DNA of 35,705 nt from Nitriliruptoraceae bacterium (GTDB lineage: Bacteria > Actinomycetota > Nitriliruptoria > Nitriliruptorales > Nitriliruptoraceae), in the NCBI GenBank assembly GCA_007121785.1, contig SKJX01000028.1, positions 1 to 35,705 on the forward strand, written 5' to 3'. The notes under the pieces are model-generated. The model was not told the origin of the DNA. It made no database searches and was given only the letters and a program-made list of their open reading frames with translations. Within the stretch, counting starts at the first letter, position 1. Every line of letters begins with the position of its first letter. Made by a program: the position numbers and the translations under genes. This document shows positions 2,298 through 19,532 of this stretch, piece by piece.

Positions 2298-2905
2298 CCA
2301 CCACCTCCCGTGGCCGGCAGCAGGTGCACCAGCGCCAGCAGCACCAGCGCCGCTGCCGCCGCGAACCACGCGTGGATCGCCGCGTGGGTCAGCTCCAGGT
2401 GACGGTCCGGGTCGACGAAGCCGACCAGCGTCTGCACCAGCACCCCGACCAGCACCAGGACCGACACGCCCAGGAACCACGCGGCGAAGCCGGTCAGGAT
2501 CCAGTAGACGGACGCGTAGGCGTGCGCGTCGTGGGGGAAGGGCAGCTGCCAGAGGTGGGCGACCAAGGTCACCACCGCAGCGGTGTGCAACCCGACGGCA
2601 CCCGCCAGGGCGATCGCTGCCCCCCGTCGCCGCTCGGCCCCCATCGTGGACCGGGCACGGGTGGCCACGAGCCCGCCCAGCACCGACAGCACCGCCGCGA
2701 TCGACGCTGGCAGTCCACTGGGAGGCTCGATGAACGGCGGCGGCCACGCCTCCTGCCCGGTGTGCAGGTACAGGGCTGCGGCCGCGAGCCCGGCCACGAA
2801 CGTCGCGACCACCGTGAGGGTCAGCCACAGGCCCCAGGTGCCCATCGCCGAGGTGCGGGCACGCTCACCGATCGGTTCCGCGGTACGTGAATGCTGGACA
2901 GCCAT
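2294..2905 (-). CDS. ctaE: Cytochrome c oxidase subunit III
   Basis: 203 aa. The ATG at 2905 shares its A with the ctaD stop (TGATG), so translation is coupled. Five hydrophobic segments fit the short bacterial subunit III fold: GLWLTLTVVATFVAGLAAAALYL near 25-47, ASIAAVLSVLGGLVA, IALAGAVGLHTAAVVTLV, SVYWILTGFAAWFLGVSVLVLVG, and WFAAAAALVLLALVHLL. The pattern HAYASVYWILTGFAA...HA and the later H-AIHAWF helix correspond to the second half of subunit III. It stabilises the catalytic core and contains no redox centre. A longer upstream start is possible but would overlap ctaD by 126 bases. Position between ctaD and the small membrane gene supports the call. Confidence 0.87.
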   Translation of the reverse strand: MAVQHSRTAEPIGERARTSAMGTWGLWLTLTVVATFVAGLAAAALYLHTGQEAWPPPFIEPPSGLPASIAAVLSVLGGLVATRARSTMGAERRRGAAIALAGAVGLHTAAVVTLVAHLWQLPFPHDAHAYASVYWILTGFAAWFLGVSVLVLVGVLVQTLVGFVDPDRHLELTHAAIHAWFAAAAALVLLALVHLLPATGGGG

Positions 2906-4827
2906 CACTCGACCCCCGGCCAGAGCCACGCCGCAGCCGATGCGATCATGCCGACCAGCCCGAACACCCCGAGTGGGACCGAGTCGATCAGTACGCCCAC
3001 CAGCGCCACCGCCAAGGCGATCGACACCCACAGCGGATGCAGCGAGTGGCCCGGCAACGTCACGATGTGGTCGGGCTCAGCGTCCAGCCCGGTGGTCGCG
3101 ACCATCTGTCGGACACCGGTTTCGGGACGCTCCAACCGCCGTTGCCAGTCGGGTCGGTCAGGATCAGGGCCGTCCGGCCCGTGGTCGCCGAGCACCGAGC
3201 GGTCGTCCCACAGCGGTTCGGGGCTGTACACCTGCATCGTGGAGCGGAAGTTGTAGTTGGGGGCGGGGGAGCCGGTCGCCCACTCCAGGGTGTCGCCACC
3301 CCAGGGATCGGCTGGCGCGGTCGGTGCCCCGGGTCGATGCGCCAGGACCAGTGCGACCGTGAAGATCAGCATCCCCAGCCCCATGACGTAGGAGCCTGCC
3401 GTGGAGAGCAGGTTGAGGCCATCCCAGCCGAGCCCTTCCTCGTAGGTCCAGACCCGCCGCGGCATGCCGAACATCCCGAGCGCGTGCTGCGGGAAGAACG
3501 CCAGGTTGAACCCGAGGAAGTTGAGGGCGAAGGCCCACCCCCCGAGCTTCTCCGACATGATCCGGCCCGTGAGCTTCGGCATCCAGTGGTGCAGGGCTCC
3601 CAGGATCGGGAACAGCGACCCGCCGACCAGCACGTAGTGCAGGTGGGCGACGATGAAGTAGGTGTCGTGGACCTGCCAGTCGAACGGGACCATGGCGACC
3701 ATCACGCCGGTGATGCCACCGGCGACGAACACGAACACGAACCCGACCACGTACAGCACCGACGACGACCAGCGGATCCGGCCCCACCACAACGTGCCGA
3801 TGAACGACATGACGATCACCCCGGAGGGGATGGCGATCATGAAGCTCGCTGCCGTGAACAGCGACGTCGCCAGCAGCGGGATGCCGGTCGCGTACATGTG
3901 GTGGACCCACAGCCCGAACGACAGGATCCCGATCGCCACCAGCGAGGCGATCACCGCGGTCCGCCCCGACATCCGCCGGCCAGCCGCGGCGGTGACGATC
4001 GCGGCGGCCATCCCCAGCGCCGGGATCAGCTGGATGTAGACCTCCGGGTGTCCGAACCACCAGAACAGGTGCTGCCACAGCAGTGGATCCCCGCCGGCGG
4101 AGGCGTCGTAGAACACGGTGCCAACCTTGCGGTCGAGTTCCAGCAGCACCGTGCCGGCGACCAGCGGCGGGAACGCGAAGAGGATCATCACCGATGCGAC
4201 GAACCCGGACCAGACGAACACCGGCATCCGGAAGATCGACATGCCCGGCGCGCGGAAGCGGGCGACCAGGGTGACGATCTCGATCGCGGTGACGATGCCG
4301 GAGACCTCCAGCATCGTCACCCCGAGCAGCCAGAAGTCGAGGTTGAGCTCCGGGGCGTAGTCCGGCCCGGTCAGCGGGACGTAGGCGAACCAGCCGCTGT
4401 CGGGCACCGCGCCAGCGGCGAAGCTCGACAGCAGGAAGATCCCGCCGAGCAGGTAGACCCAGTAGCCGAGCGCGTTGAGCCGGGGCATCGGCATGTCGCG
4501 GGCACCGAGCGCCAGCGGCGCGACGTAGACCACGAACCCCTTGAGCATGGGCACCACGAACAGGAACATCATGATCGTCCCGTGCATGGTGAACAGCTCG
4601 TTGAACTGCTGGGCTCCCACCACGTCGTTGTCAGGGAAGGCCAGCTGGGTCCGCATGACCAGCGCCAACGCTCCACCGATGAGCAGGAACACGAACGAGG
4701 TGAAGACCAGCCGGCGGCCGATCGCCTTGTGGTTGCACTGCCCGAGCCAGCCGATGAAGCCCGGCCGCGCCCCCCAGATGTGGTCGAGGAGCTGGACGTC
4801 CGAGGGACGATCGGTTCCCGCGCTCAT
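2905..4827 (-). CDS. ctaD: Cytochrome c oxidase subunit I (A1-type haem-copper oxidase)
   Basis: 640 aa catalytic subunit that reduces O2 to water and pumps protons. Low-spin haem ligands are H82 (ELFTMHGT) and H397. The high-spin haem ligand is H395 (VAHLHY). CuB ligands are H260, H309 and H310, with the cross-linking Tyr in GHPEVY. The Glu of GHPEVY and D111 of GARDMPMPRLN are the D-channel residues, which places it in the A1 class. About 12 helices fill residues 35-520. After a soluble linker the last 60 residues hold a GHSLHPLW motif and two more helices, resembling a fused small subunit IV. The ATG at 4827 overlaps the ctaC stop (ATGA). Identification is certain. The subunit IV reading is inference. 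Confidence 0.97.
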   Translation of the reverse strand: MSAGTDRPSDVQLLDHIWGARPGFIGWLGQCNHKAIGRRLVFTSFVFLLIGGALALVMRTQLAFPDNDVVGAQQFNELFTMHGTIMMFLFVVPMLKGFVVYVAPLALGARDMPMPRLNALGYWVYLLGGIFLLSSFAAGAVPDSGWFAYVPLTGPDYAPELNLDFWLLGVTMLEVSGIVTAIEIVTLVARFRAPGMSIFRMPVFVWSGFVASVMILFAFPPLVAGTVLLELDRKVGTVFYDASAGGDPLLWQHLFWWFGHPEVYIQLIPALGMAAAIVTAAAGRRMSGRTAVIASLVAIGILSFGLWVHHMYATGIPLLATSLFTAASFMIAIPSGVIVMSFIGTLWWGRIRWSSSVLYVVGFVFVFVAGGITGVMVAMVPFDWQVHDTYFIVAHLHYVLVGGSLFPILGALHHWMPKLTGRIMSEKLGGWAFALNFLGFNLAFFPQHALGMFGMPRRVWTYEEGLGWDGLNLLSTAGSYVMGLGMLIFTVALVLAHRPGAPTAPADPWGGDTLEWATGSPAPNYNFRSTMQVYSPEPLWDDRSVLGDHGPDGPDPDRPDWQRRLERPETGVRQMVATTGLDAEPDHIVTLPGHSLHPLWVSIALAVALVGVLIDSVPLGVFGLVGMIASAAAWLWPGVE

Positions 4828-5978
4828 TCCAGCACCTCGAGGTAGTCGAGTAGCGCCTCGAGTTCGTCCGGCTCGAGTGTGGTCGGTGGCATCGGATTAC
4901 CGGGCTTGACCCCCCAGGGATCGACGATCAGCTCCTGGAGGTCGTCGCGCGTGTTGGGCCGGATCCCGGCCGCCAGCGACCCGCGGGAGGCCAGGTGCGT
5001 CAGGTCCGGGCCGACACCGGCGACCGCATCCGTGCCCTGCACGGCGTGGCAGGCTGCGCAGCCCGCTTCGATGAACACCCGCTGGCCTTCGACCTCCTGG
5101 TCGGTCTGCGGCTCGGCGGCGTCGGCCTGCTGCTGCTCGACCCAGGCGTCGAACTCGTCCGCTTCCTGCACCTCCAGGAACGCCACCATCTGTGCGTGGG
5201 CGATGCCGCAGTACTCCGCGCACTGCCCGCGGAACCGACCGGTCTCGGTCGGTTCGAACGTCAGCAGGTTCTCCCGGCCGGGGATCATGTCGATCTTGCC
5301 GTGGACCCGCGGGATCCAGAAGCTGTGGATCACGTCCTCGGTGGTGAGGTTCAGCCGGACCGGTCGATCCACGGGCACGTGGATCTCGTTGGCGGTGGTG
5401 ATGTCCAGTTCGGGGTAGTGGACCTCCCACCAGAACATGTGGCCGATCACGTCGATCTCGAGCTCCCCGTCGCGCTCCACGTGCGCTGTGGACGAGCCGA
5501 CCTGGCCCGAGGCGATCAACAGCAGCAGGAGGATCGCGGCCGGCACCACAATCCCACCGAGCCAGAGCAGGCGGCTGCGGGCGAGCGCATCCCGCTGGGC
5601 ATCGTCGTGTTCGTGCGGGTCCGCGACGGCGAGCGGTTCGTCCAGCTCGGCCGCGGGCGCCGTCGCGTCCGCCCGCGTCCGGGCCTCGTCGGCCGGCGGG
5701 GGGCACACCACCTCGACATCGAGGTGGTCGTCATCGGACGACGCCGGCCGACCGCGATCGGACGCGTCCCGCCGCTGACGCCACGACCGCAGCAGCGGCA
5801 CGGCCAGCAGGCCCATCACGATGATCCAGACGGCGACGCCCAACCACAGGCTCAGCGTCCACAGCCCGTCGATGTCGCTGGCCTGCGGGCTGGCCGGATC
5901 GGTGATGCGGTCGCGCGGTTCGAGGCCGCAACCGGTCAGGACGAGCAGCGCGGACAGGAGGGCGAGGCGGCGGGTCAC
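4824..5978 (-). CDS. ctaC: Cytochrome c oxidase subunit II with C-terminal cytochrome c domain (caa3 type)
   Basis: 384 aa. A lipoprotein signal with lipobox LTGC (C17) is followed by helix 40-63, an acidic linker, helix 137-157, then the cupredoxin domain. CuA ligands are visible: H218, C253, E255, C257, H261 and M264 within CAEYCGIAHAQM. A class I cytochrome c domain is fused at the C-terminus, with CAACH at 307-311 and probable Met ligand M363 in GNPMPP. Such caa3 subunits accept electrons through the attached haem c. The linker between the two helices (residues 65-136) is unusually long, about 70 residues and Asp/Ala-rich. Start is GTG 5978 in a GTGA overlap with the qcrB stop. The call is certain. 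Confidence 0.97.
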   Translation of the reverse strand: MTRRLALLSALLVLTGCGLEPRDRITDPASPQASDIDGLWTLSLWLGVAVWIIVMGLLAVPLLRSWRQRRDASDRGRPASSDDDHLDVEVVCPPPADEARTRADATAPAAELDEPLAVADPHEHDDAQRDALARSRLLWLGGIVVPAAILLLLLIASGQVGSSTAHVERDGELEIDVIGHMFWWEVHYPELDITTANEIHVPVDRPVRLNLTTEDVIHSFWIPRVHGKIDMIPGRENLLTFEPTETGRFRGQCAEYCGIAHAQMVAFLEVQEADEFDAWVEQQQADAAEPQTDQEVEGQRVFIEAGCAACHAVQGTDAVAGVGPDLTHLASRGSLAAGIRPNTRDDLQELIVDPWGVKPGNPMPPTTLEPDELEALLDYLEVLE

Positions 5979-7336
5979 GGTGCCTCCTCGGTCGGGTCAG
6001 CCGCTGTCGGCACCGTGGCGGTGGTGTCGACGGATGTGGTCGACGGTCGACGGGCACGTCGACGGGCGGCGGCGACCGCGGCAGCGGTGGCCAACACGGG
6101 CAGGGCGATGGCCAGGACCTGGAAGGTGGCGACGACCCGCTCGACCGCGACGCCCAGCCAGAACGACAGCACGTCGACGCCGGCGGCCAGGCTCAGCACC
6201 AAGGCCAGCGTGGTCACCCCGGTGACCGTCCCCGCACGCAACGGCACGTCGAGCGGATGGTCGAGGGCGTGGTGCTGTCGGTGGTCGCCCAGGCGCCACC
6301 GTTCGAGCAGCGGGTACAGCGCGACGCCGGCGACCAGCAGTCCCGGGATGACCACGCCGGCGATCAGCACGTTGGTGATGCGAACGGTGCCGATGATCAG
6401 ATCGATCGCCGGAACGATGCGCAAGCCCCCGGTCAGGAAGAACAGCGGCCACGGCGGATGGACGCTGTTGGTGGCCTCCGCGGTCAGGAACGGGCCTTCG
6501 AGTTCCGCGTCACTCCACGGCACGAGCACGGCAGAGATCAGCAGCAGCGCCGTCAGCGCGGTGGTGAGCAGCGCGAACCGGGTGACGGCGTCGGGCCACA
6601 GCGGACGTCCGACGGCGACCACCTCGACGTCCACGTCCGAGCGGCGGACCGCAGCCGGGCGGCGGCGGTGCACCAGCACCAGGTGGCCGACCAGCAGGCC
6701 GATGAAGGCCAGCGGAAGCAGGATCACGTGGCCGACCCAGGCGATCAGCAGGAACCGGTCGCTGGGGAGCTCGCCGGCGAACAGGACGGCGCCGAGCTCC
6801 TCGCCAGCGAACGGCAGCGCGTACATGACCGATTCGGCGATGCGCAGGCTGGAGCCGGCGACCAGGCCGAACGGGAGCAGTTCGCCGGTGTAGGCGAAAC
6901 CGAGAGCGACCAGCAGCAGCCCGATGCCGGTGGCGTGGGTCAGCAGCCGCGGCGAGCGGAACGCGCCGGTCGCCAGGGTACGCAGCAGGTGCGCGACCAG
7001 CGCGATCAGGAACAGGTGCGAGGCCGCGACGTGCAACCGGCGTAGCAGCAGGCCGCCGGGCATGTCCTCGCTGATCGTGACGATCGAGGCGAACGCCGCT
7101 GGCAGCGTGCGCCCGTCGAACAGTTCCGAGCTGCCCTGGTAGACCACCGGCGCGGTGGAGGGGCGGTAGGCCAGGGCCAGGAGCAGGCCGGTGACGGTGA
7201 GCACGAGGAACGCGACCACCGCGGCGTGGCTGACCAGGGGCCAGAACCCGGTCGGCCACACCGACGGCGGCGACGCACGCCGACCGATGCGCCGGTCCAG
7301 GCTTTCGGCGAGCGAGGCGAGCGGAGACGGCGGCAC
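5975..7336 (-). CDS. qcrB: Cytochrome b subunit of menaquinol-cytochrome c reductase
   Basis: 453 aa full-length (N- and C-halves fused) cytochrome b. Haem ligands are H102/H116 (13 residues between them) and H203/H218 (14 residues between them). The latter spacing is typical of cytochrome b6 and of menaquinol-using complexes. The Qo-site motif usually written PEWY is replaced by PPWP at 294-297 (SVHPPWPLFFL). Eight or nine hydrophobic helices are apparent, with a basic and Ala/Thr-rich tail. The GTG start at 7336 lies just after the qcrA stop at 7339-7341. Its stop overlaps ctaC. With QcrA and QcrC it forms the membrane complex that oxidises menaquinol and feeds the caa3 oxidase encoded directly downstream. 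Confidence 0.94.
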   Translation of the reverse strand: MPPSPLASLAESLDRRIGRRASPPSVWPTGFWPLVSHAAVVAFLVLTVTGLLLALAYRPSTAPVVYQGSSELFDGRTLPAAFASIVTISEDMPGGLLLRRLHVAASHLFLIALVAHLLRTLATGAFRSPRLLTHATGIGLLLVALGFAYTGELLPFGLVAGSSLRIAESVMYALPFAGEELGAVLFAGELPSDRFLLIAWVGHVILLPLAFIGLLVGHLVLVHRRRPAAVRRSDVDVEVVAVGRPLWPDAVTRFALLTTALTALLLISAVLVPWSDAELEGPFLTAEATNSVHPPWPLFFLTGGLRIVPAIDLIIGTVRITNVLIAGVVIPGLLVAGVALYPLLERWRLGDHRQHHALDHPLDVPLRAGTVTGVTTLALVLSLAAGVDVLSFWLGVAVERVVATFQVLAIALPVLATAAAVAAARRRARRPSTTSVDTTATVPTAADPTEEAP

Positions 7337-7338
7337 GC

Positions 7339-8157
7339 TCAGGCCCTCCCGCCGACGGGCCCAGGACGGGCGGTGAGGTCGTCGGCCGCGACGAGCGTGC
7401 CGTCGTCAGCCAGCGCCAACGGAAGTTGCGGGAGAGGTACGGACGCCGGTCCGGCGGTCGGGTGTGCTCCGCGCCGGGCGTCGAACGTGGCCTGGTGGCA
7501 GGGGCAGAACAGCGCCTGGTCGACGTCGCGGTACAGCGCGACCGCGCAGCCGGCGTGGGTGCACAGGCGGGAGTAGGCGACCAGGGTGCCGTCGATCACG
7601 CCGTCGAGCCGGGTCGGCGCTTCGGCGGCGTCCCGCAGGCGCAACAGCATCACGGCGGACCGTTCCGTGCCGGCGGCACCCTCCGGCCACACGGTGACGA
7701 CACCACCGAGGGGAACGTCCTCGGGCCGGACGCGGTCGCCGCCGATCGTGACCAGCGCGGCGCCGCGAGCCCAGCGGCCGGTCGGCGGGGGCGGGGCGGT
7801 GCGTCGCAGTCCCACCAGCGCGGCCAACCCGAGGACCACCGCGACCGCCCCGCCAGCCAGCAGGTGCCGTCGGCCGACCCGCTCGATCGGGTCGGTTGCG
7901 TCGGTTCCCTCCCGGGGCACGGGCTGTTCGCCTGCATCCTGGGTCACGACCAGATGGTGCAATGCCACGCTGGCAGCCAGCGCGGTCGCCGCCCCCAGGG
8001 TGCCCAGCACCTCGACGCCGGCACCGCCGAACCACGCGATCGTCAGCACCACGGCGAAGGCGGCGGCGGCCAACAACCAGCCGATCAGCCACGGTCGGCG
8101 GAGCCGATCGCCCTGCGGGCTCGGTCCGGACGGCTCACGCGTCTGTGAGCTGGTCAC
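7339..8157 (-). CDS. qcrA: Rieske iron-sulfur subunit, actinobacterial type
   Basis: 272 aa. Three N-terminal helices (about residues 23-43, 49-71, 98-117) match the actinobacterial QcrA architecture rather than the single-helix proteobacterial one. The Rieske domain has CTHAGC at 199-204 and CPCH at 218-221, giving the 2Fe-2S ligands C199, H201, C218 and H221 and the disulfide pair C204/C220. I chose GTG 8157 because GGAGG at 8166-8170 lies eight bases upstream. Starts further upstream would run into qcrC, whose stop is at 8163-8165. The protein transfers electrons from menaquinol at QcrB to the c-type haems of QcrC. Confidence 0.95.
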   Translation of the reverse strand: MTSSQTREPSGPSPQGDRLRRPWLIGWLLAAAAFAVVLTIAWFGGAGVEVLGTLGAATALAASVALHHLVVTQDAGEQPVPREGTDATDPIERVGRRHLLAGGAVAVVLGLAALVGLRRTAPPPPTGRWARGAALVTIGGDRVRPEDVPLGGVVTVWPEGAAGTERSAVMLLRLRDAAEAPTRLDGVIDGTLVAYSRLCTHAGCAVALYRDVDQALFCPCHQATFDARRGAHPTAGPASVPLPQLPLALADDGTLVAADDLTARPGPVGGRA

Positions 8158-8162
8158 TTGGG

Positions 8163-9011
8163 TCACCTCCTTGGCTCGAACGGCGGGTCGGCGTGGGCAC
8201 CCTCCGGTTCGTGCGGCGACCATCGACGGACCCGCGCGACGACCAGGACCACGACGCCGGCCAAGAGCGCCAGGCCGACGGCGAACAGCGCGCTCGAGAC
8301 CTGGTCCACCTCACGCACCCCGGCAGGTGAGCGCGGTGTGTCGTCAACCAGGTCGAGGTAGGCCACGAGATCGTCGATGTCGTCGTCGTCCAGGACGGCG
8401 GGATCGAACCCGGGCATCTCGAACGGGCCGATCCGGGTCGCCTGGTGGATCGCCACGTCGTCGAGCCCGACCAGCGGCGGGACCTGCGTCGCGGCCCCGG
8501 AGATCCCACCGTCCGCCGCCGCGCCGTGACAGGCGGCGCAGTTGCGGACGTAGGCGTCCTGGCCGCGGGAGGCGTCGCCCTCGCCGATCGTCGGGATCGC
8601 ACCGGGCAGGTCGAACCGTTCCGCGGCGTAGACGGCCAACGCCTCGCGCTCCTGTTCATCGAGCACGTCGGTGCGGATACCGACCTCCGGGGCGACGATC
8701 GGCATGCGCCCGGTCCGCACCGTCAGGTCCCAGTAGTTGATGTCGGTCTCGTCGATCGCCGGTGCACCCAGGTCACCGCTGCCGGTGCCACCCTCGGCCC
8801 GCGTGCCGTGGCAGGCGGCGCAGTTGTCCTGGAACACCTCGCCACCGCGGGTGTAGAGATCGTCCTGCGCAGACGCCTGCGTGCCGAACGTGGCGGCGAA
8901 GCCCGCGGCGGCCAGTAGCGTGACAACCCCCAACCAGCGCGAACCAGAGTGAGCCCGACGGCCTCGGCGGTGCTTGGATAGCCCCCCCTGTGGGGTGGCG
9001 TTGCGCTCCAT
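8163..9011 (-). CDS. qcrC: Dihaem cytochrome c subunit QcrC
   Basis: 282 aa. An N-terminal signal/anchor (about 25-48, ending TQASAQ) is followed by two cytochrome c domains, each with CAACH: residues 64-68 and 158-162. Probable axial Met residues are M103 and M199. A C-terminal helix at about 239-260 anchors it. This is the actinobacterial QcrC layout, in which the dihaem protein replaces a separate cytochrome c and passes electrons straight to oxidase subunit II. The ATG at 9011 was chosen because it gives a normal signal region. It has only a weak GGGA ribosome site. It is the first gene of the eight-gene respiratory operon, and a perfect hairpin lies just upstream in the leader. Confidence 0.93.
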   Translation of the reverse strand: MERNATPQGGLSKHRRGRRAHSGSRWLGVVTLLAAAGFAATFGTQASAQDDLYTRGGEVFQDNCAACHGTRAEGGTGSGDLGAPAIDETDINYWDLTVRTGRMPIVAPEVGIRTDVLDEQEREALAVYAAERFDLPGAIPTIGEGDASRGQDAYVRNCAACHGAAADGGISGAATQVPPLVGLDDVAIHQATRIGPFEMPGFDPAVLDDDDIDDLVAYLDLVDDTPRSPAGVREVDQVSSALFAVGLALLAGVVVLVVARVRRWSPHEPEGAHADPPFEPRR

Positions 9012-9028
9012 CGTGGTCCCATGATCAC

Positions 9029-9049
9029 GCCCGTCCGCTGAGGACGGGC
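9029..9049 (-). promoter_or_regulatory. Leader hairpin of the respiratory operon
   Basis: GCCCGTCC (9029-9036) and GGACGGGC (9042-9049) form a perfect eight-base stem with a five-base loop. It begins 17 bases upstream of the qcrC start codon, so it falls in the untranslated leader and could cover or frame the ribosome site. A role in translation control or mRNA stability is inference. Confidence 0.45.
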
Positions 9050-9274
9050 CTGCCTGCCGCGTCGTGCCGGACGAGGTGCGAAGCCAACCACGAGATCGGG
9101 GTCGCATGCCGGCACGGTGCCAACGTGTGACCAGGTGTCCGTTCGGCCGAGGTTAGACCGCGGGCTCGGAAGGTGCGGCGCAGATCGGCCGCCTGCACGG
9201 CTGGGATCACCGGCTCGGTGGGCCACCTCCTGGTGCGGCCACTACGCTGTCGTCGGCCGACGCAGGAGCCGCTC

Positions 9275-11662: not shown

Positions 11663-13156
11663 ATGCCACGCAACTACTTCATCCGCACCTTCGGGTGCCA
11701 GATGAACGAGCACGACTCCGGTCGTGCCGCCGGCCTGCTGGAGTCCCTGGGCTACCGGCGTGCGGCATCGGAGGACGACGCCGACCTGGTCCTGCTCAAC
11801 ACCTGCGCGGTCCGGGAGAACGCCGACAACAAGCTCTACGGCACCCTCGGCCACCTCAAGTCACGCAAGGACGCCAGGCAAGCCGCCGGTGAGGACCTCA
11901 CGATCGTCGTCGGTGGCTGCCTCGCCCAGAAGGACGGCGCCACGGTCGCGGACAAGGCCCCGTGGGTGGACGTGGTCTACGGCACGCACAACCTCGTCGA
12001 TCTGCCGCAGCTGCTCGCACAGGCCGACTCCGCCGAGGTGCCGGTCATCGAACTGGTCGAGCAGCTCGAGACCTTCCCGTCGGCGCTACCGGCCAAGCGC
12101 GACGTCCGCCACCATGCCTGGGTCTCGATCGCGGTCGGGTGCAACAACGCGTGCACCTTCTGCATCGTGCCGAGCCTGCGCGGCCCCGAGCGCTCCCGCC
12201 GGATCGGCGAGATCGTCCACGAGGTCGAGCAGTTGGTCGCCGACGACGTCGTCGAGGTGACGCTGCTCGGCCAGAACGTCAACTCGTACGGCCGCGATCT
12301 CGCCGGAGCCAGCCGTTTCGCGGAGCTGCTCCGGGAGCTGGGGGAGATTGACGGGCTGGAACGTGTCCGGTTCACCTCACCGCATCCGCGCGACTTCACC
12401 GAGGACGTCCTGCAGGCGATGGCCGACACCCCCAACGTGATGCCGCACCTGCACCTGCCGCTGCAGTCGGGCTCCGATCGGGTCCTCCGGGCGATGCGTC
12501 GCTCGTACCGTCGACGCCGGTTCCTGGCGCTGGTCGAGCGCACCCGCGAGTTGCTGCCGGATGCGTCGCTGACCACCGACATCATCGTCGGCTTCCCCGG
12601 CGAGACCGACGAGGACTTCCAGGCGACCCTCGAGGTGGTCGAGCAGGTCCGGTTCGACCAGGCGTTCACGTTCCAGTTCTCGCCGCGGCCGGGCACCCCG
12701 GCAGCGGCGATGACCGACGGATCCGTCGACCCGCACGTGGTGGGCGAGCGCTACCGGCGGCTGGAAGCCGCGACCCGCCAGCACTCGCAGGAAGCCCACG
12801 AGCGGCTGGTCGGCACCGTGCAGGAGCTGCTGATCGACTCGCCGTCCAAGACCGACGCCTCGCGCTGGTCGGGACGGACCCGCGGCAACCACCTGGTGCA
12901 TCTGCCAGCGCCGAGCTTCGCCGACGGTGTCGAGCCGCCGTTCGCCCCCGGGGACCTCGTGACCGCCGAGGTGGTGGAGGCAGCCGCCAACTACGCGATC
13001 GCCGACGAGGCACGTGACGTGCGGCGCACGGCCGCGGGTCGGACGACCTCCGCGGCGCTGGCACGCGGGGAGAGCTGGCGGACCGCGACCCAGACGGCGG
13101 CGCCGGTTGCGCCGGCCGGTGCACAGCTGCCGGTGGTCGGTGCTCCGGCCCGCTGA
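11663..13156 (+). CDS. miaB: tRNA-2-methylthio-N6-dimethylallyladenosine synthase MiaB
   Basis: 497 aa methylthiotransferase that adds a methylthio group to i6A37 in tRNAs reading codons that start with U. The N-terminal UPF0004 domain carries cluster ligands C12 ([11 protein letters not shown]), C48 (NTCAVREN) and C86 (GGCLAQ). The radical-SAM domain has C160, C164 and C167 in [17 protein letters not shown] domain follows (about 385-455). The QMNEHDS signature and the ASSOCIATION with miaA favour MiaB over RimO or MtaB. The ATG at 11663 directly precedes [14 protein letters not shown]. The last 60 residues are an Ala/Thr-rich extension beyond the TRAM domain. An orphan kinase gene separates it from miaA. 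Confidence 0.96.
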
Positions 13157-13226: not shown

Positions 13227-14729
13227 GTGACGCTGGATGCCGCGGGTACCGGCTCCCAGGGGCCGTCGCTTGCGGTGCTGCTCGATCGGCTCCCCGAGCG
13301 TGTGCTGTGCTACCGCCAGCGCGATCGGGTGATCCATTACGTCAACGCGGCGGAGGCGGCGGAGTATGGGCGACGGCCGCAGGAGCTGATCGGCTACCGG
13401 CTTGACGATGCGCTCGGCCCGACGGAGGCGTCACGGTTGGCCTCGCATGCCGGGGACCTCACGCAGCAGGAACCGGTCCGCTCGACGATCACCCGCGAGG
13501 GTGACCGGTGGATCGAGTGGGTCGATCAGTTGCTGGTCGGCCCCGAGCCGGCGGTGCTCGCGGTCGGTCGAGACGTCACCGAACGTGAGGACGCCGTTCG
13601 CGAGCTCGCCGCCTCGGAGCACCGTCTCCGCCTGGTGCTGGACGCTGCGCCCGTCGGGATGGCGCTCGTCGACCTCGACGGCACCCTGCGGCAGGTCAAC
13701 CGGGCGCTGTGTCGCTTCCTCGGCCGATCCGAGGACGAGCTGGTGGGGATGTCGAGCCTGGACTTGACCCACCCCGACGACGTGGAGGCGGACCTGGCCT
13801 ACCGCCGGAGCCTGCGGGACGGCGAGCCGGCTGACGACACCCTGGCGAAGCGGTACCTGCGGCCGGATGGCTCGGTCGTCTGGGGGATGCTGAAGGTGTC
13901 GCTCCTCACCGACGAGGCCGGCGAGCCGGTGCAGATGGTCGGCCAGGTCGTCGACATGACCGAGCAGATGCAACGCGAAGCGGAGCTTCAACGCGCGGCG
14001 GCGACCGAGCGCGCTGCGGCGGACCGACTCCGGGAACTGGACGAGACCAAGAACACCTTCCTCTCGGCGGTCTCCCACGAGCTGCGTACCCCGCTGACCT
14101 CCGTGCTGGGGTTCGCCAAGCTCGTGCGAGATCGCCACCACGAGCTGCCGCCGGATCGACTGGCGTCGTCGCTGGAGGCCCTGGCCCGCAACGCCGACCG
14201 GCTGGCCGAGCTGCTCGCCGATCTGTTGGATGTCGACCGGATCATGCGTGGTCGGTCGTTGCCGCTGCGATCCGGTTGGGTGGACGTTGCGGAGGTGGTC
14301 GCCGACGCGCTCACGAACGTCGACCTGCAGGACCGGGCGGTCACCCGTGACCTGACGCCCGTGGAGATCCTGGCCGATCGTGCCAAGCTCGAACGGGTCG
14401 TGATCAACCTGATCGCCAACGCCGTCCGGCACACCCCGGAGGGGAGCGCTATCGAGGTCACCGTGGCCTCGACCGACGGGGGAGCCCGGCTGACCGTCGC
14501 CGACCGGGGCCCCGGGGTGCCCGACGAGCTGAAGGCGGCCATCTTCGAAGCTTTCGATCTCGGGCCGAACGAGGCGCCGCACGTCGGGGGTACGGGCATC
14601 GGCCTGGCTCTGGTGCGCGGGTTCGTCGAACTCCATGGTGGCGGAGTCTGGGTCGAGGACCGTCCCGGTGGCGGGGCGGCCTTCCAGGTCGAGTTGCCGC
14701 GCCATCCTCCGGCCGGTGGAGGACGCTGA
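13227..14729 (+). CDS. Orphan PAS-PAS sensor histidine kinase
   Basis: 500 aa soluble kinase with no transmembrane segment. Two PAS domains cover about residues 15-120 and 130-250; the second has the PAC-like end YLRPDGSVVWG...VVDMTEQ. A short coiled coil (250-275) leads to a HisKA domain with phosphoacceptor H284 in SHELRTPLTS. The HATPase domain has an N-box NLIANAVRHTPEG, G1 DRGPGVPDE and G2 GGTGIGLALV. The GTG start at 13227 has GAAGGGA upstream. No response regulator is encoded in the window. The gene lies between miaB and miaA, and its end sets the miaA ribosome site, so it is probably co-transcribed with miaA. Ligand and partner are unknown. Confidence 0.92.
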   Translation: MTLDAAGTGSQGPSLAVLLDRLPERVLCYRQRDRVIHYVNAAEAAEYGRRPQELIGYRLDDALGPTEASRLASHAGDLTQQEPVRSTITREGDRWIEWVDQLLVGPEPAVLAVGRDVTEREDAVRELAASEHRLRLVLDAAPVGMALVDLDGTLRQVNRALCRFLGRSEDELVGMSSLDLTHPDDVEADLAYRRSLRDGEPADDTLAKRYLRPDGSVVWGMLKVSLLTDEAGEPVQMVGQVVDMTEQMQREAELQRAAATERAAADRLRELDETKNTFLSAVSHELRTPLTSVLGFAKLVRDRHHELPPDRLASSLEALARNADRLAELLADLLDVDRIMRGRSLPLRSGWVDVAEVVADALTNVDLQDRAVTRDLTPVEILADRAKLERVVINLIANAVRHTPEGSAIEVTVASTDGGARLTVADRGPGVPDELKAAIFEAFDLGPNEAPHVGGTGIGLALVRGFVELHGGGVWVEDRPGGGAAFQVELPRHPPAGGGR

Positions 14730-14730
14730 G

Positions 14731-15633
14731 GTGCCGGTCCTCGCGATCGTCGGACCGACGGCGTCAGGGAAGTCGGACGCGGCGTGGTCGCTCGCGCGCC
14801 GACGCATCGCAGACGGGTGCCCCACCGAGGTGGTCGCCGTCGATGCGTTCACCGTCTACCGCGGCATGGACGTCGGCACCGCGAAGCCGTCGCCGGCGGT
14901 CCGCGAGCAGGTGCCCCACCACCTCATCGACGTGCTCGATCCGGACGAGGAGCTCACGGTGGCCAGCTTCCGTCGGCTGGCGAGGTCGGTGATCGACGAC
15001 GTCCGCGCTCGCGGAGCCACCCCGTTGCTGGTCGGCGGTTCCGGGCTGTACTTCCGTGCCGTGGTCGATCCGCTGACCTTCCCGCCCACCGATCCGGGGG
15101 TGCGGGCTCGGCTCGAGCGATGCTGGCAGCAGGACCCGACAGGTGCGCACGCGGTCCTCGAACAGCAGGATCCGGTCGCGGCCGGGCGGATCGATCCACG
15201 CAACCTGCGGCGCACGGTCCGAGCGTTGGAGGTGATCGAGCTCACCGGTGACACCTTCTCCGGGTTCGACGACGGGTTCGACCGGCATACCTCGATCTAC
15301 CCTGACCTCGAGGTCGCCTACCTCGAACCGGACGGGGCGACGCTGCGGACCCGCATCCGTGACCGGGCGGAACGGATGGTCGACGCGGGCCTGCTGGAGG
15401 AGGCCCGTCGGCTCCGGGCCGCCGGGCCGTTGTCGCGCACCGCCGCGCAGGCGATCGGCTACGCGGAGGCGTTCGCGGTGCTCGATGGTCAGCTCGATGT
15501 AACCCAACTGGCCGACGCCGTCGCCCGTCGCACCTGGCGCTACGCGAAGCGACAGCGATCCTGGTTCCGCACCGATCCGCGCTGCGTCGCCGAGACGGCC
15601 GATGAGGTGGTCGCCCGCCTCGCGTCCGTGTGA
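14731..15633 (+). CDS. miaA: tRNA dimethylallyltransferase MiaA
   Basis: 300 aa. It transfers the dimethylallyl group to A37 of tRNAs, making the substrate of MiaB. The P-loop GPTASGKS is at residues 8-15. VVAVDAFTVYRGMDVGTAKP follows near residues 35-54, with VPHHLIDVLDPDEELTVASF next and LVGGSGLYFRAVVDPL near 99. The usual DSMQ-type motif reads DAFT here. I chose GTG 14731 because GGAGG at 14718-14722 lies eight bases upstream, only one base after the kinase stop. That overlap of signals suggests coupling to the kinase gene. Length is normal for the family. Confidence 0.95.
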   Translation: MPVLAIVGPTASGKSDAAWSLARRRIADGCPTEVVAVDAFTVYRGMDVGTAKPSPAVREQVPHHLIDVLDPDEELTVASFRRLARSVIDDVRARGATPLLVGGSGLYFRAVVDPLTFPPTDPGVRARLERCWQQDPTGAHAVLEQQDPVAAGRIDPRNLRRTVRALEVIELTGDTFSGFDDGFDRHTSIYPDLEVAYLEPDGATLRTRIRDRAERMVDAGLLEEARRLRAAGPLSRTAAQAIGYAEAFAVLDGQLDVTQLADAVARRTWRYAKRQRSWFRTDPRCVAETADEVVARLASV

Positions 15634-15862: not shown

Positions 15863-16055
15863 GCGCGACACCAGCTGGCCATGCTCAGCGCAGCAACTGG
15901 CTGAACCGGGCATACGTCGACCGTCCGGCATCGAAGCTCGTTCGTGACACGCTGAGATGAACAGCCTCGTCCGGCACCGCGGGTGCCGGGTCCACAGCGC
16001 GGAGTCTGGGAGCGTGGCACCCCACCCCTTACCCCCGTCAGAAGGATCCCCGTCC

Positions 16056-16892
16056 GTGTTGTGGAACCTCGAGAACATCGTTGAGTTCACCCCGGCCCAG
16101 TTCGACCTGATGTCGACGGTGCTGACGATCGGGTACGCCGCCCACTTCGCGGGTCTGGCGTACTTCATCCTCACCCGCAAGAACGTCGCTCCGCGTTACC
16201 GCTCCATGACCACGATGTCGGTGGTCGTCATGCTCTCCGCCGCGCTGCTGTTGCTGCGGCTCGACATCTCCCTGAACCAGGCGTTCGACTACGACGCAGC
16301 CCAGGGCCTCTACGTCCTCGGTGACGCCACGTACAACCACGGCTTCCGGTACTTCAACTGGTTGATCGACGTCCCCCTGTTGCTCACCCAGAGCCTGTTC
16401 GTCCTCAACATCGCCAAGCCCGACATCCTGGGTTACCGCCTCAAGCTCGGTGCTGCCGGTGCCCTGATGGTCATCCTGGGCTACATCGGCCAGTTCTACG
16501 AGGTCGCGGACCCGTTCGGCGCGCTGATCTGGTGGGGTGTGGCGGCGACGATCCCCTACATCTACTTCTTCGGCATCTTCTGGCGGCTGACGGGTGACTC
16601 GCTCAACGAGCTTCCTGGCCAGGCGAAGTCGACGATGCGCAACATCCGCTACCTCTTCGCCTTCTCCTGGAACCTCTACATCGTCGCCTACATCGTGCCC
16701 ATGCTGGGCGACTTCGGGCAGAGCGCCGAGGCCGCGGTCACGCGCACCTACCTGTTCACGATCGCCGACGTGCTCTCGAAGATCGTCTACGGGATCCTGC
16801 TCGGCAAGGTGGCGACGGCACGATCCGTGGCCGAGGGCTTCGAGGTCGACGGCTACGAGCATCTCGCGGAGGAGCCGTCCGCGGCAGGCTGA
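16056..16892 (+). CDS. Microbial rhodopsin with NDQ motif, predicted light-driven sodium pump (NaR)
   Basis: 278 aa, seven helices. Helix C reads RYFNWLIDVPLLLTQ. The positions equivalent to bacteriorhodopsin D85, T89 and D96 are N101, D105 and Q112, the NDQ signature of KR2-type outward sodium pumps. R98, the retinal lysine K242 with counterion D238 (ADVLSKIVYGILLG), G250 and the motif GYIGQFYEV (142-150) also match KR2. L109 at the tuning site predicts green absorption. Compared with KR2, N61 becomes Thr (T53) and H30 becomes Thr (T21). I chose GTG 16056 because GAAGGA lies nine bases upstream and the N-terminus then aligns with KR2; the upstream ATG at 15957 would add 33 unrelated residues. 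No retinal-forming oxygenase gene is in the window. A proton role is possible when Na+ is absent, as in KR2. Confidence 0.95.
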   Translation: MLWNLENIVEFTPAQFDLMSTVLTIGYAAHFAGLAYFILTRKNVAPRYRSMTTMSVVVMLSAALLLLRLDISLNQAFDYDAAQGLYVLGDATYNHGFRYFNWLIDVPLLLTQSLFVLNIAKPDILGYRLKLGAAGALMVILGYIGQFYEVADPFGALIWWGVAATIPYIYFFGIFWRLTGDSLNELPGQAKSTMRNIRYLFAFSWNLYIVAYIVPMLGDFGQSAEAAVTRTYLFTIADVLSKIVYGILLGKVATARSVAEGFEVDGYEHLAEEPSAAG

Positions 16893-17063: not shown

Positions 17064-17990
17064 ATGCACTACACCCTCGCACACGGCACCGCCAACGACT
17101 TCGTGGTGCTTCCCGATCTCGACGATGCCGTCGAGTTGACGGCCGGCCTCGCTGAGGCCCTGGCCGAACGGCGGCGTGGTCTGGGTGCGGACGGTGTGAT
17201 CCGCATCGGTGCTCCGCCGCCGGAGCAGCGGGACGCGCAGGTGTTCATGGACCACCGCAACGCCGACGGGTCCCACGCGGAGATGTGCGGTAACGGCGTC
17301 CGGGTGGTCGCCAAGCACGTGGTCGACCACGGGCTGGTGTCACCCGATCCCGACGCCGTCGTGCGCGTCGCCACGCGCGCCGGCACCAAGGCGGTGCGCG
17401 TGGCCGAACGTGACGGCGCCGGGCGCGTCACCGCCGTGACGGTCGACATGGGCCCGCCCGAGCTCGACCCGGCTCGGGTCCCGTTCGTCGCCGACGACGC
17501 CTTGGCGGTCCGCCATCCGGTGGAACTCCACGGTGAGGCTGCGGCCACGGCCGGCAGCGACCACCTCGACGTCGCGGTGGTGTCGATGGGCAACCCGCAC
17601 GCGGTCGTGTCGATCGCCACCGTCGACACCGCACCGGTGGGTGTGCTCGGTCCGGCGATCGAAGCGCACCCTCGGTTCCCCAACGGCGTCAACGTCGGCT
17701 TCGTGGAGGTCGTCGACGACGGCCACGTCAACCTGCGAGTGTTCGAGCGCGGGGTCGGCGAGACGGCCGCCTGTGGCACCGGCGCGTGCGCGGCGGTGGT
17801 CGCCCTGCAACGCGACGGGCAGGTCGCCGACCGGGTCGCGGTGGCGCTGCCGGGTGGCACCCTGACGATCGAGCACCGGCCCGGTGGTTCGGTGATGATG
17901 ACCGGTCCGGCCATCGAGGTGGCACACGGCGAGCTCGATCCCGCGTGGCTGGCCTCGGCACTCCCGGCGCCGTCCCCCGCTGCGAACTGA
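17064..17990 (+). CDS. dapF: Diaminopimelate epimerase DapF
   Basis: 308 aa. It converts LL- to meso-diaminopimelate for peptidoglycan and lysine synthesis. Both catalytic cysteines are visible: C75 in EMCGNGVR and C237 in ETAACGTGACAA. Other family landmarks are GTANDFVVL, RRGLGADGVI, FMDHRNADGS, and VSMGNPHAV with its substrate-binding Asn. The start ATG 17064 has no strong ribosome site; TACCCT at 17051-17056 just upstream could be a -10 of a leaderless-like start, which is inference. It lies 171 bases after the rhodopsin and just ahead of hflX, as in other actinobacteria. Confidence 0.95.
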   Translation: MHYTLAHGTANDFVVLPDLDDAVELTAGLAEALAERRRGLGADGVIRIGAPPPEQRDAQVFMDHRNADGSHAEMCGNGVRVVAKHVVDHGLVSPDPDAVVRVATRAGTKAVRVAERDGAGRVTAVTVDMGPPELDPARVPFVADDALAVRHPVELHGEAAATAGSDHLDVAVVSMGNPHAVVSIATVDTAPVGVLGPAIEAHPRFPNGVNVGFVEVVDDGHVNLRVFERGVGETAACGTGACAAVVALQRDGQVADRVAVALPGGTLTIEHRPGGSVMMTGPAIEVAHGELDPAWLASALPAPSPAAN

Positions 17991-18038: not shown

Positions 18039-19532
18039 CTGAGCACCAACCGCGATACCGACCCCACCCGCCACGCCGACGCGCCCCACGGTGACGCGGA
18101 CCTGCCGGAGACCGATGACGGCCCGCCGGAGTTGACCCGCGCCGAGCTGCGTCGACGTCGTCGCCAGGTCGTCGAGGACGACGCCCCGCAGGAGGGCGTC
18201 GACATCATCCGGCGCGTCGAGCGTGCGGTCGTGGTCGGCGTCCAGCTACCGGGCCGCAGCAGCGCGGACGTCGACGCGTCCCTCGACGAGTTGACCGCGT
18301 TGCTGGACACCGCCGGCGCGGAGGTCGTCGAGCGGGTCGTCCAGCGGCGGGACGCACCCGATGCGGCCACGTTCCTCGGCGGGGGCAAGGTCGCCGAACT
18401 CGCGGACCTGGTCGCCGCGGTCGGTGCGGACGCGGTCGTGTTCGATGACGACCTCTCCCCGGCGCAGCAGCGCACGCTGGAGGAGCGCATCCACCAGAAG
18501 GTGCTCGACCGCACGATCGTGATCCTGGACATCTTCGCTCAGCACGCCACCTCCAAGGAGGGCAAGGCTCAGGTCGAGCTGGCGCAGCTGACCTACCTGC
18601 TGCCGCGGCTGCGCGGGTGGGGGACGGCGCTGTCGCGCCAGGCCGGTGGGCGGGCCGCCGGTGGCGTCGGGATCGGTGGTCGTGGTCCCGGTGAGACCCA
18701 GCTGGAGGTCGACCGTCGGCGCATCATGCGGCGTATCTCCAAGCTGCGGCGCGATCTGGCCGGCTACGGCCGCATCCGTGACACCAAGGCCAGCGAACGC
18801 GAACGCAACCAGGTGCAGGTCGCCGCGCTCGTCGGCTACACCAACGCCGGCAAGTCATCGCTGCTCAACGCCCTCACCGGCGCGGACGTGGCGGTCGAGG
18901 ACAAGCTGTTCGCCACACTGGACCCCACCGTGCGGCGGCTGCCCCTCGACGACGGCCGCGAGATCGTCATCACGGACACGGTCGGGTTCATCGCCAAGCT
19001 CCCGCATGGGCTCGTGGAGGCGTTCACCTCCACCCTGGAGGAGTCCACCCGGGCCGACCTGCTGCTGCACGTCGTGGACGCATCGCACCCGGAGGCCGAG
19101 TCGCAGATCCTCGCGGTCAAGGACGTCCTGCAGGAGATCGGTGCGGACCAACGGCCCGAGCAGCTCGTGCTGAACAAGATCGACCAGGCCGACCGCGCCA
19201 CGGTCGATGCGTTGGCCCGGCGGCTGCGGACCGAGCTCGACACCGAACCGGTGCTGGTCTCCGCCGTCACCGGTGAAGGCCTGGACGAGCTGACCGAACG
19301 GCTCGAGCTGCGCCTGCCGAGCCTGCGCTACCGGGTGTCAGGGCACGTGCCGTACGCCCGCCAGGACCTGGTCGCGCTCGCCCACCGGTGCGGCACGGTC
19401 GTCAAGGAAGGCTACGACGAGACCGGCACCACCCTGGTCGCCGACGTCGATCACGACGCCGCTCTGGAGCTGCGCCACTACCTCGACGACGACCCGTTCG
19501 CCGAGGAGCCGGAACCCTGGGAAGCAAACTGA
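18039..19532 (+). CDS. hflX: Ribosome-associated GTPase HflX
   Basis: 497 aa from the proposed CTG start. HflX binds 50S ribosomal subunits and rescues or splits stalled ribosomes. The N-terminal HflX domain contains VVQRRDAPDAATFLGGGKV, followed by the glycine-rich GGRAAGGVGIGGRGPGETQLE and a coiled linker. The G domain has GYTNAGKS at 266-273, DTVGF (G3) and NKID (G4). The first ATG/GTG/TTG available is TTG 18132, which has only an abutting GGAG. The frame is open further up with strongly G/C-ended codons to CTG 18039, preceded by GGAGG at 18029-18033. I therefore prefer CTG, with the TTG as alternative. The extension is acidic and probably disordered. Confidence 0.88.
   Translation: MSTNRDTDPTRHADAPHGDADLPETDDGPPELTRAELRRRRRQVVEDDAPQEGVDIIRRVERAVVVGVQLPGRSSADVDASLDELTALLDTAGAEVVERVVQRRDAPDAATFLGGGKVAELADLVAAVGADAVVFDDDLSPAQQRTLEERIHQKVLDRTIVILDIFAQHATSKEGKAQVELAQLTYLLPRLRGWGTALSRQAGGRAAGGVGIGGRGPGETQLEVDRRRIMRRISKLRRDLAGYGRIRDTKASERERNQVQVAALVGYTNAGKSSLLNALTGADVAVEDKLFATLDPTVRRLPLDDGREIVITDTVGFIAKLPHGLVEAFTSTLEESTRADLLLHVVDASHPEAESQILAVKDVLQEIGADQRPEQLVLNKIDQADRATVDALARRLRTELDTEPVLVSAVTGEGLDELTERLELRLPSLRYRVSGHVPYARQDLVALAHRCGTVVKEGYDETGTTLVADVDHDAALELRHYLDDDPFAEEPEPWEAN

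Follow-up and report, generated by a model that had tools for sequence, protein, structure and literature searches.

The 35,705-nt stretch of DNA analyzed here (the window), from a Nitriliruptoraceae bacterium, encodes a rhodopsin in a locus otherwise made up of genes such as miaA and dapF. This raises the questions of which ion, if any, such a protein would move in light, and of how long a gene of this kind has resided in this place. Judged from its sequence, the protein very likely uses light to pump Na+ outward, as a rhodopsin of the NDQ kind, named for Asn-Asp-Gln at the positions of bacteriorhodopsin (BR) residues 85, 89, and 96. Na+ pumps of this kind are already known, and what appears to be new is a distinct set of replacements.

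The rhodopsin gene, its neighbors, and its distribution

The gene (16056..16892, + strand) begins with GTG, 9 nt downstream of the Shine-Dalgarno sequence AGAAGGA (16040..16046, +). A GAAGGA-type sequence together with the GTG start is kept in most syntenic relatives, and a comparison of the upstream region across relatives revealed no clear conserved promoter motif. The 278-aa translation matches Pfam Bac_rhodopsin (2.6e-29), and the open reading frame is real, with N101, D105, Q112, D238, K242, and the string GYIGQFYEV all present as the earlier note on this DNA had read them. The best solved relatives are IaNaR (PDB 8jh0; E 2e-54) and KR2 (Krokinobacter eikastus rhodopsin 2; E ~1e-47), and identity is 43% to IaNaR, 41% to KR2, 36% to the NTQ chloride pump, and 33% to xanthorhodopsin. 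IaNaR and KR2 are also the top fold matches of an AlphaFold model of modest confidence (pLDDT 66.5; 11 sequences in the alignment). A single rhodopsin was found in the window genome (3.8 Mb, 251 contigs, 88% complete). Pairwise dN/dS between the window gene and its orthologues ranges from 0.07 to 0.39, indicating purifying selection on the NDQ orthologues, as would be expected of a used gene.

Annotation by homology confirms the flanks that had been proposed, miaA (14635..15633, +; domain from residue 36, true start probably near 14740) and dapF (17064..17990, +). Upstream of these lie miaB (11663..13156, +) and, between miaB and miaA, a PAS histidine kinase gene (13227-14729, +); hflX follows dapF (18132..19532, +). 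The order miaB - histidine kinase - miaA - rhodopsin - dapF - hflX recurs in a second genome of the same genus (G002), while in six further syntenic relatives whose loci are complete the order is miaB - rhodopsin - miaA - dapF - hflX, and in a seventh the rhodopsin is placed in the same block by miaB. The kinase occupies the gap in the window and G002 but is not seen there in the other syntenic relatives, in which the rhodopsin fills it. An unchanged block with the rhodopsin shifted by one gene points to a gene that has long been resident here and has moved locally, and speaks against a recent stray acquisition. On the stretches examined, more distant orthologues lack a miaB-miaA-dapF-hflX block. 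Elsewhere on the contig, an actinobacterial bc1-aa3 respiratory cluster (2905-9107, -) encodes cytochrome c oxidase subunits I and II, cytochrome b, a Rieske protein, and cytochrome c.

An NDQ rhodopsin had been considered unexpected in actinobacteria. At the level of the phylum this stands: in a sample of 397 evenly drawn genomes, NDQ copies occurred only in the class of the window bacterium, and the other matches whose motif could be read were DTE rhodopsins (Asp-Thr-Glu), except for one class-mate STQ protein; one partial match (L048) was left unclassed. It does not hold within the class, where an NDQ copy, often in synteny, is present in 18 of the 66 genomes and a 5' fragment in one more. 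The gene is therefore unusual for the phylum and ordinary for its lineage. The relatives that have names are 61-95% identical and belong to MAGs assigned to Nitriliruptoraceae, Egibacter, and Nitriliruptoria, with isolate names that are mostly T1Sed, T3Sed, B1Sed, and CSSed; going by these names, which match a published study (PMC6146748), most come from soda-lake sediment. A search of a viral collection found no rhodopsin relative, and plasmid sequences yielded only three records, either partial or matching at about 29-30%. No paper on rhodopsins in Nitriliruptoria was found in a literature search that left most subscription journals outside its reach. Nitriliruptoraceae also have another rhodopsin, which belongs to the DTE type of proton pumps (L020, L021, L044, and L050-L053) and accompanies the NDQ pump in genomes G006, G010, G021, and G024.

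Conserved residues, phylogeny, and the class of pump

The NDQ residues of the window protein are Asn101 (KR2 N112; 16356..16358, +), Asp105 (KR2 D116; 16368..16370, +), and Gln112 (KR2 Q123; 16389..16391, +), and the motif is intact in 17/17 orthologues. The segment Asp238-Val-Leu-Ser241-Lys242 (16767..16781, +) corresponds to KR2 D251/S254/K255, with Asp238 four residues before the retinal-binding Schiff-base lysine, as in KR2. By alignment, the residues of KR2 kept in all 17 orthologues are N112, D116, Q123, R109, S64, S70, L74, Q157, E160, R243, D251, S254, K255, and G263; in window numbering, K242, S61, S55, R98, Q146, E149, R230, S241, and D238 are among those invariant in all 17. The extracellular triad E11-E160-R243 of KR2 is kept as E6-E149-R230, where E149 and R230 were assigned by alignment and E6 by a common N-[FL]-E-N motif checked against the KR2 N-terminus. 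The DTE triad of proton pumps is absent, NDQ standing in its place, as is the middle Thr of the NTQ type, replaced by Asp105. One position counts against a Na+ pump: KR2 Y108, at which an Ala mutant is nearly dead, is Phe in the window protein, although 12 of the 17 orthologues keep Tyr.

A maximum-likelihood tree built from 40 rhodopsins places the window protein in a 17-sequence Nitriliruptoria clade (100/99) on the side that comprises NDQ, NTQ, and STQ proteins, and this side is split from 19 DTE proton pumps (100/100). The test rejects, by a narrow margin (p 0.039), a topology that joins the Nitriliruptoria clade to the proton pumps. The phylogeny that the earlier note had proposed as a check thus keeps the window protein away from proton pumps, and motif, tree, and closest structures agree on the NDQ class. 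The STQ rhodopsin noted above (Ser-Thr-Gln at the NDQ positions; L019 1501-2307, -, genome G047) takes a basal position on the NDQ/NTQ side; it is 39% identical to the window protein, its best solved matches are IaNaR and ClR, and its motif may be undescribed.

The alternative that survives best, though improbable, is that the protein is in practice a proton pump, with NDQ present, Na+ not the main ion, and an extracellular half resembling that of H+ pumps. It draws on helix B, where Arg68-Leu69-Asp70 (16257..16265, +) stands opposite KR2 A77-Q78-A79. Arg68 corresponds to xanthorhodopsin (XR) R65, is present in 19/19 H+ pumps, and is absent from KR2, IaNaR, and ClR; a reading of it as a novelty of the clade was dropped, since the residue is common to all H+ pumps in the set. 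Asp70 and His95 (KR2 N106; 16338..16340, +) are confined to the Nitriliruptoria clade among the sequences compared, and the R68/D70 charge pair, found in no characterized Na+ pump compared, also counts against Na+ transport. Additionally, pumps of the KR2 type transport H+ in media that contain neither Na+ nor Li+ (PMC9728251). Against a proton pump, however, stand the lack of an acceptor Asp and a donor Glu at BR 85 and 96 (N101 and Q112 instead), the position in the tree, and the lowering of H+ pumping that follows replacement of H30 in KR2. Xanthorhodopsin-type pumps themselves combine R65 with the DTE triad and with His at the position of KR2 L74, whereas the window protein has NDQ and Leu. 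The antenna-carotenoid glycine is also common to both (Gly161, XR G156; 16536-16538) and is kept in 17/17 orthologues, so that a carotenoid antenna on the window rhodopsin is possible.

Retinal supply and two further alternatives

A search of the genome for blh and crt genes, as had been recommended, recovered them: the window genome carries a Brp/Blh-family blh (3.4e-50), arranged head to tail with crtI, crtB, and a CarR-type lycopene cyclase domain (G000:C117; L078:6460-10417). Only background matches to the classical lycopene cyclase (PF05834) were obtained in this genome. Among 61 relatives, all 11 genomes with blh also have a rhodopsin (Fisher p 3e-6, a value that ignores kinship). A carotenoid cleavage oxygenase of the RPE65 family (E 3.6e-124; G000:C22 13551-14783, L082) is a possible second source of retinal or apocarotenoids in the window genome.

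Seven genomes (G006, G008, G020, G021, G024, G027, and G034) encode an NDQ rhodopsin and yielded no blh match. Retinal in these cells may be scavenged or made otherwise; G006, G021, and G024 are 91-96% complete, and G024 (1.7 Mb, 96% complete) has neither crtB nor any strong match to crtI, which suggests retinal scavenging or a non-photic role. It is accordingly conceivable, at odds lower still than those of a proton pump, that the window protein, with retinal or as a bare opsin, does not pump and serves instead as a sensor or scramblase; one paper makes the case for opsins as scramblases in settings in which the synthesis of retinal is incomplete (PMC12805836). Against this, blh and crt genes are present in the window genome, conservation extends to the entire pump triad and the retinal pocket, some of the genomes without blh are MAGs that are themselves incomplete, and no transducer gene is adjacent among the named genes. 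Least credible is a pump that moves anions (Cl-) inward, as the NTQ rhodopsins (ClR/NmHR) do: the protein lies near this omega-rhodopsin group in the tree (the AU p for a single NDQ clade apart from ClR is 0.153, with one NTQ and two other NDQ sequences as references), matches ClR in His30 (the KR2 M39 position) and in having a small residue where KR2 has F72, and KR2 F72G plus D116T yields a Cl- pump (PMC10608830), but D105 is Asp in 17/17 orthologues where the NTQ group has Thr, and the other Na+-pump residues are kept.

For a Na+ pump, the steps of the cycle can be taken from what was shown for KR2. Retinal from the cell's own blh-crtI-crtB-lycopene-cyclase genes would bind K242; light would isomerize it, and the Schiff-base proton would pass to D105. 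Na+ would enter from the cytoplasm past Q112 and be held near N101 and D105, and the returning proton would block its back-flow. In a Na+-rich alkaline soda lake, this protein would move Na+ out of the cell and charge the membrane.

Replacements in the cavities, on the release side, and in helix F

Two differences from KR2 had been singled out previously as possible causes of altered ion selectivity or oligomer packing, and both align as described: Thr21 at the protomer-interface position of KR2 H30 (16116..16118, +) and Thr52 at the uptake-cavity position of KR2 N61 (16209..16211, +). The argument from them to a changed selectivity is weak. The N61 position is Gly in two orthologues and Ser in IaNaR, and N61T was set aside as a leading argument for altered selectivity, given that Ser and the retention of G263. 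The H30 position is Thr or Asn in Nitriliruptoraceae and His in four Egibacter-side orthologues; as these still have His, the replacement looks like a later change that arose inside Nitriliruptoraceae. Thr21 need not harm Na+ pumping, because KR2 H30A is more Na+-selective (PMC7195465), although the loss of Na+ pumping in KR2 H30L (PMC10608830) counts against it. An identity of ~40% to known pumps nevertheless leaves room for changed selectivity. Oligomer packing could differ as suggested, but better evidence comes from the missing D102 site, the missing P219, and R68/D70/H95, none of which the earlier note had remarked on.

In KR2, the proposed release route leads past Q78 to the interprotomer site at D102 (PMC7195465). 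In the window protein, Q78 is replaced by Leu69, H30 by Thr21, and Y25 by Phe16, and D102 is gone, with Ala91 opposite it and a BC loop two residues shorter. Since the residues of this route (Q78, D102, and H30') are replaced, Na+ would probably be released via the E6-E149-R230 side. KR2 Q78L and ErNaR, with a natural Leu, still pump Na+ (PMC11006869, PMC7195465). Podoliak 2024 divided NDQ rhodopsins into Subgroup 1, with Leu or Ile at KR2 L74, and Subgroup 2, with Glu there and D102 absent or replaced (PMC11006869). Leu65 at the L74 position is the state of Subgroup 1, not the Glu of Subgroup 2; because Leu65 occurs without D102, the window protein, placed by key residues, appears to fit neither subgroup fully. 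Actinobacteria are not named in the main text of that study (PMC11006869), whose set of 351 sequences may well include the Nitriliruptoria clade.

In helix F, Ile209 (16680..16682, +) replaces the proline of KR2 P219, a predicted red-shifting site. The proline is present in KR2, IaNaR, ClR, the STQ protein, 19/19 proton pumps compared, and four Egibacter-side copies, whereas all 13 full copies from Nitriliruptoraceae have Ile, as does the fragment in G002 (LYIVAY). KR2 P219I absorbs at 541 nm versus 525 nm for KR2 (PMC8514524); a red-shifted pump is therefore predicted, and the window rhodopsin probably absorbs ~10-25 nm redder than KR2.

Taken further, and only tentatively, the Nitriliruptoria proteins may represent a third deep NDQ lineage outside both subgroups, red-shifted by a family-wide loss of the helix-F proline, bearing a proton-pump helix-B Arg plus a new Asp, and releasing Na+ by E6-E149-R230 instead of the KR2 interprotomer route. 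As a Na+ pump, the window protein would extend Na+-pumping rhodopsins to a whole lineage of soda-lake actinobacteria, in which light-driven Na+ export would be of obvious use. The ~17 natural sequences that have replaced both the interprotomer site and the release gate of KR2, and that mostly lack the helix-F proline as well, bear on the route of Na+ release and on proline loss as a repeated natural red-shift, and red-shifted Na+ pumps are wanted as optogenetic tools.

Among characterized systems, KR2 has in common with the window protein NDQ, E11-E160-R243, L74, S254, and G263, and differs by H30T, N61T, Q78L, A77R, A79D, N106H, F72A, P219I, and Y25F as well as by the D102 site and BC loop. 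The Na+ pump IaNaR has the same NDQ, K, D, R, and E residues, and its Ser at KR2 N61 indicates that this position varies among Na+ pumps; unlike the window protein, it retains H30, D102, and P219 and lacks Arg and Asp at KR2 77 and 79. ErNaR of Subgroup 2 resembles the window protein in lacking the D102 site, in Leu at Q78, and even in the numbering R98/N101/D105/Q112/E149, but has Glu (E64) at KR2 L74 in place of Leu65. The literature consulted names just two Na+ pumps that lack the helix-F proline, JsNaR, with Gly and a red-shifted maximum of 550 nm, and PoNaR, with Thr (Inoue 2019; PMC6491443). In these the natural loss of the proline, as in the window protein, is known from single species, whereas in Nitriliruptoraceae the replacement is Ile and is fixed across an actinobacterial family.
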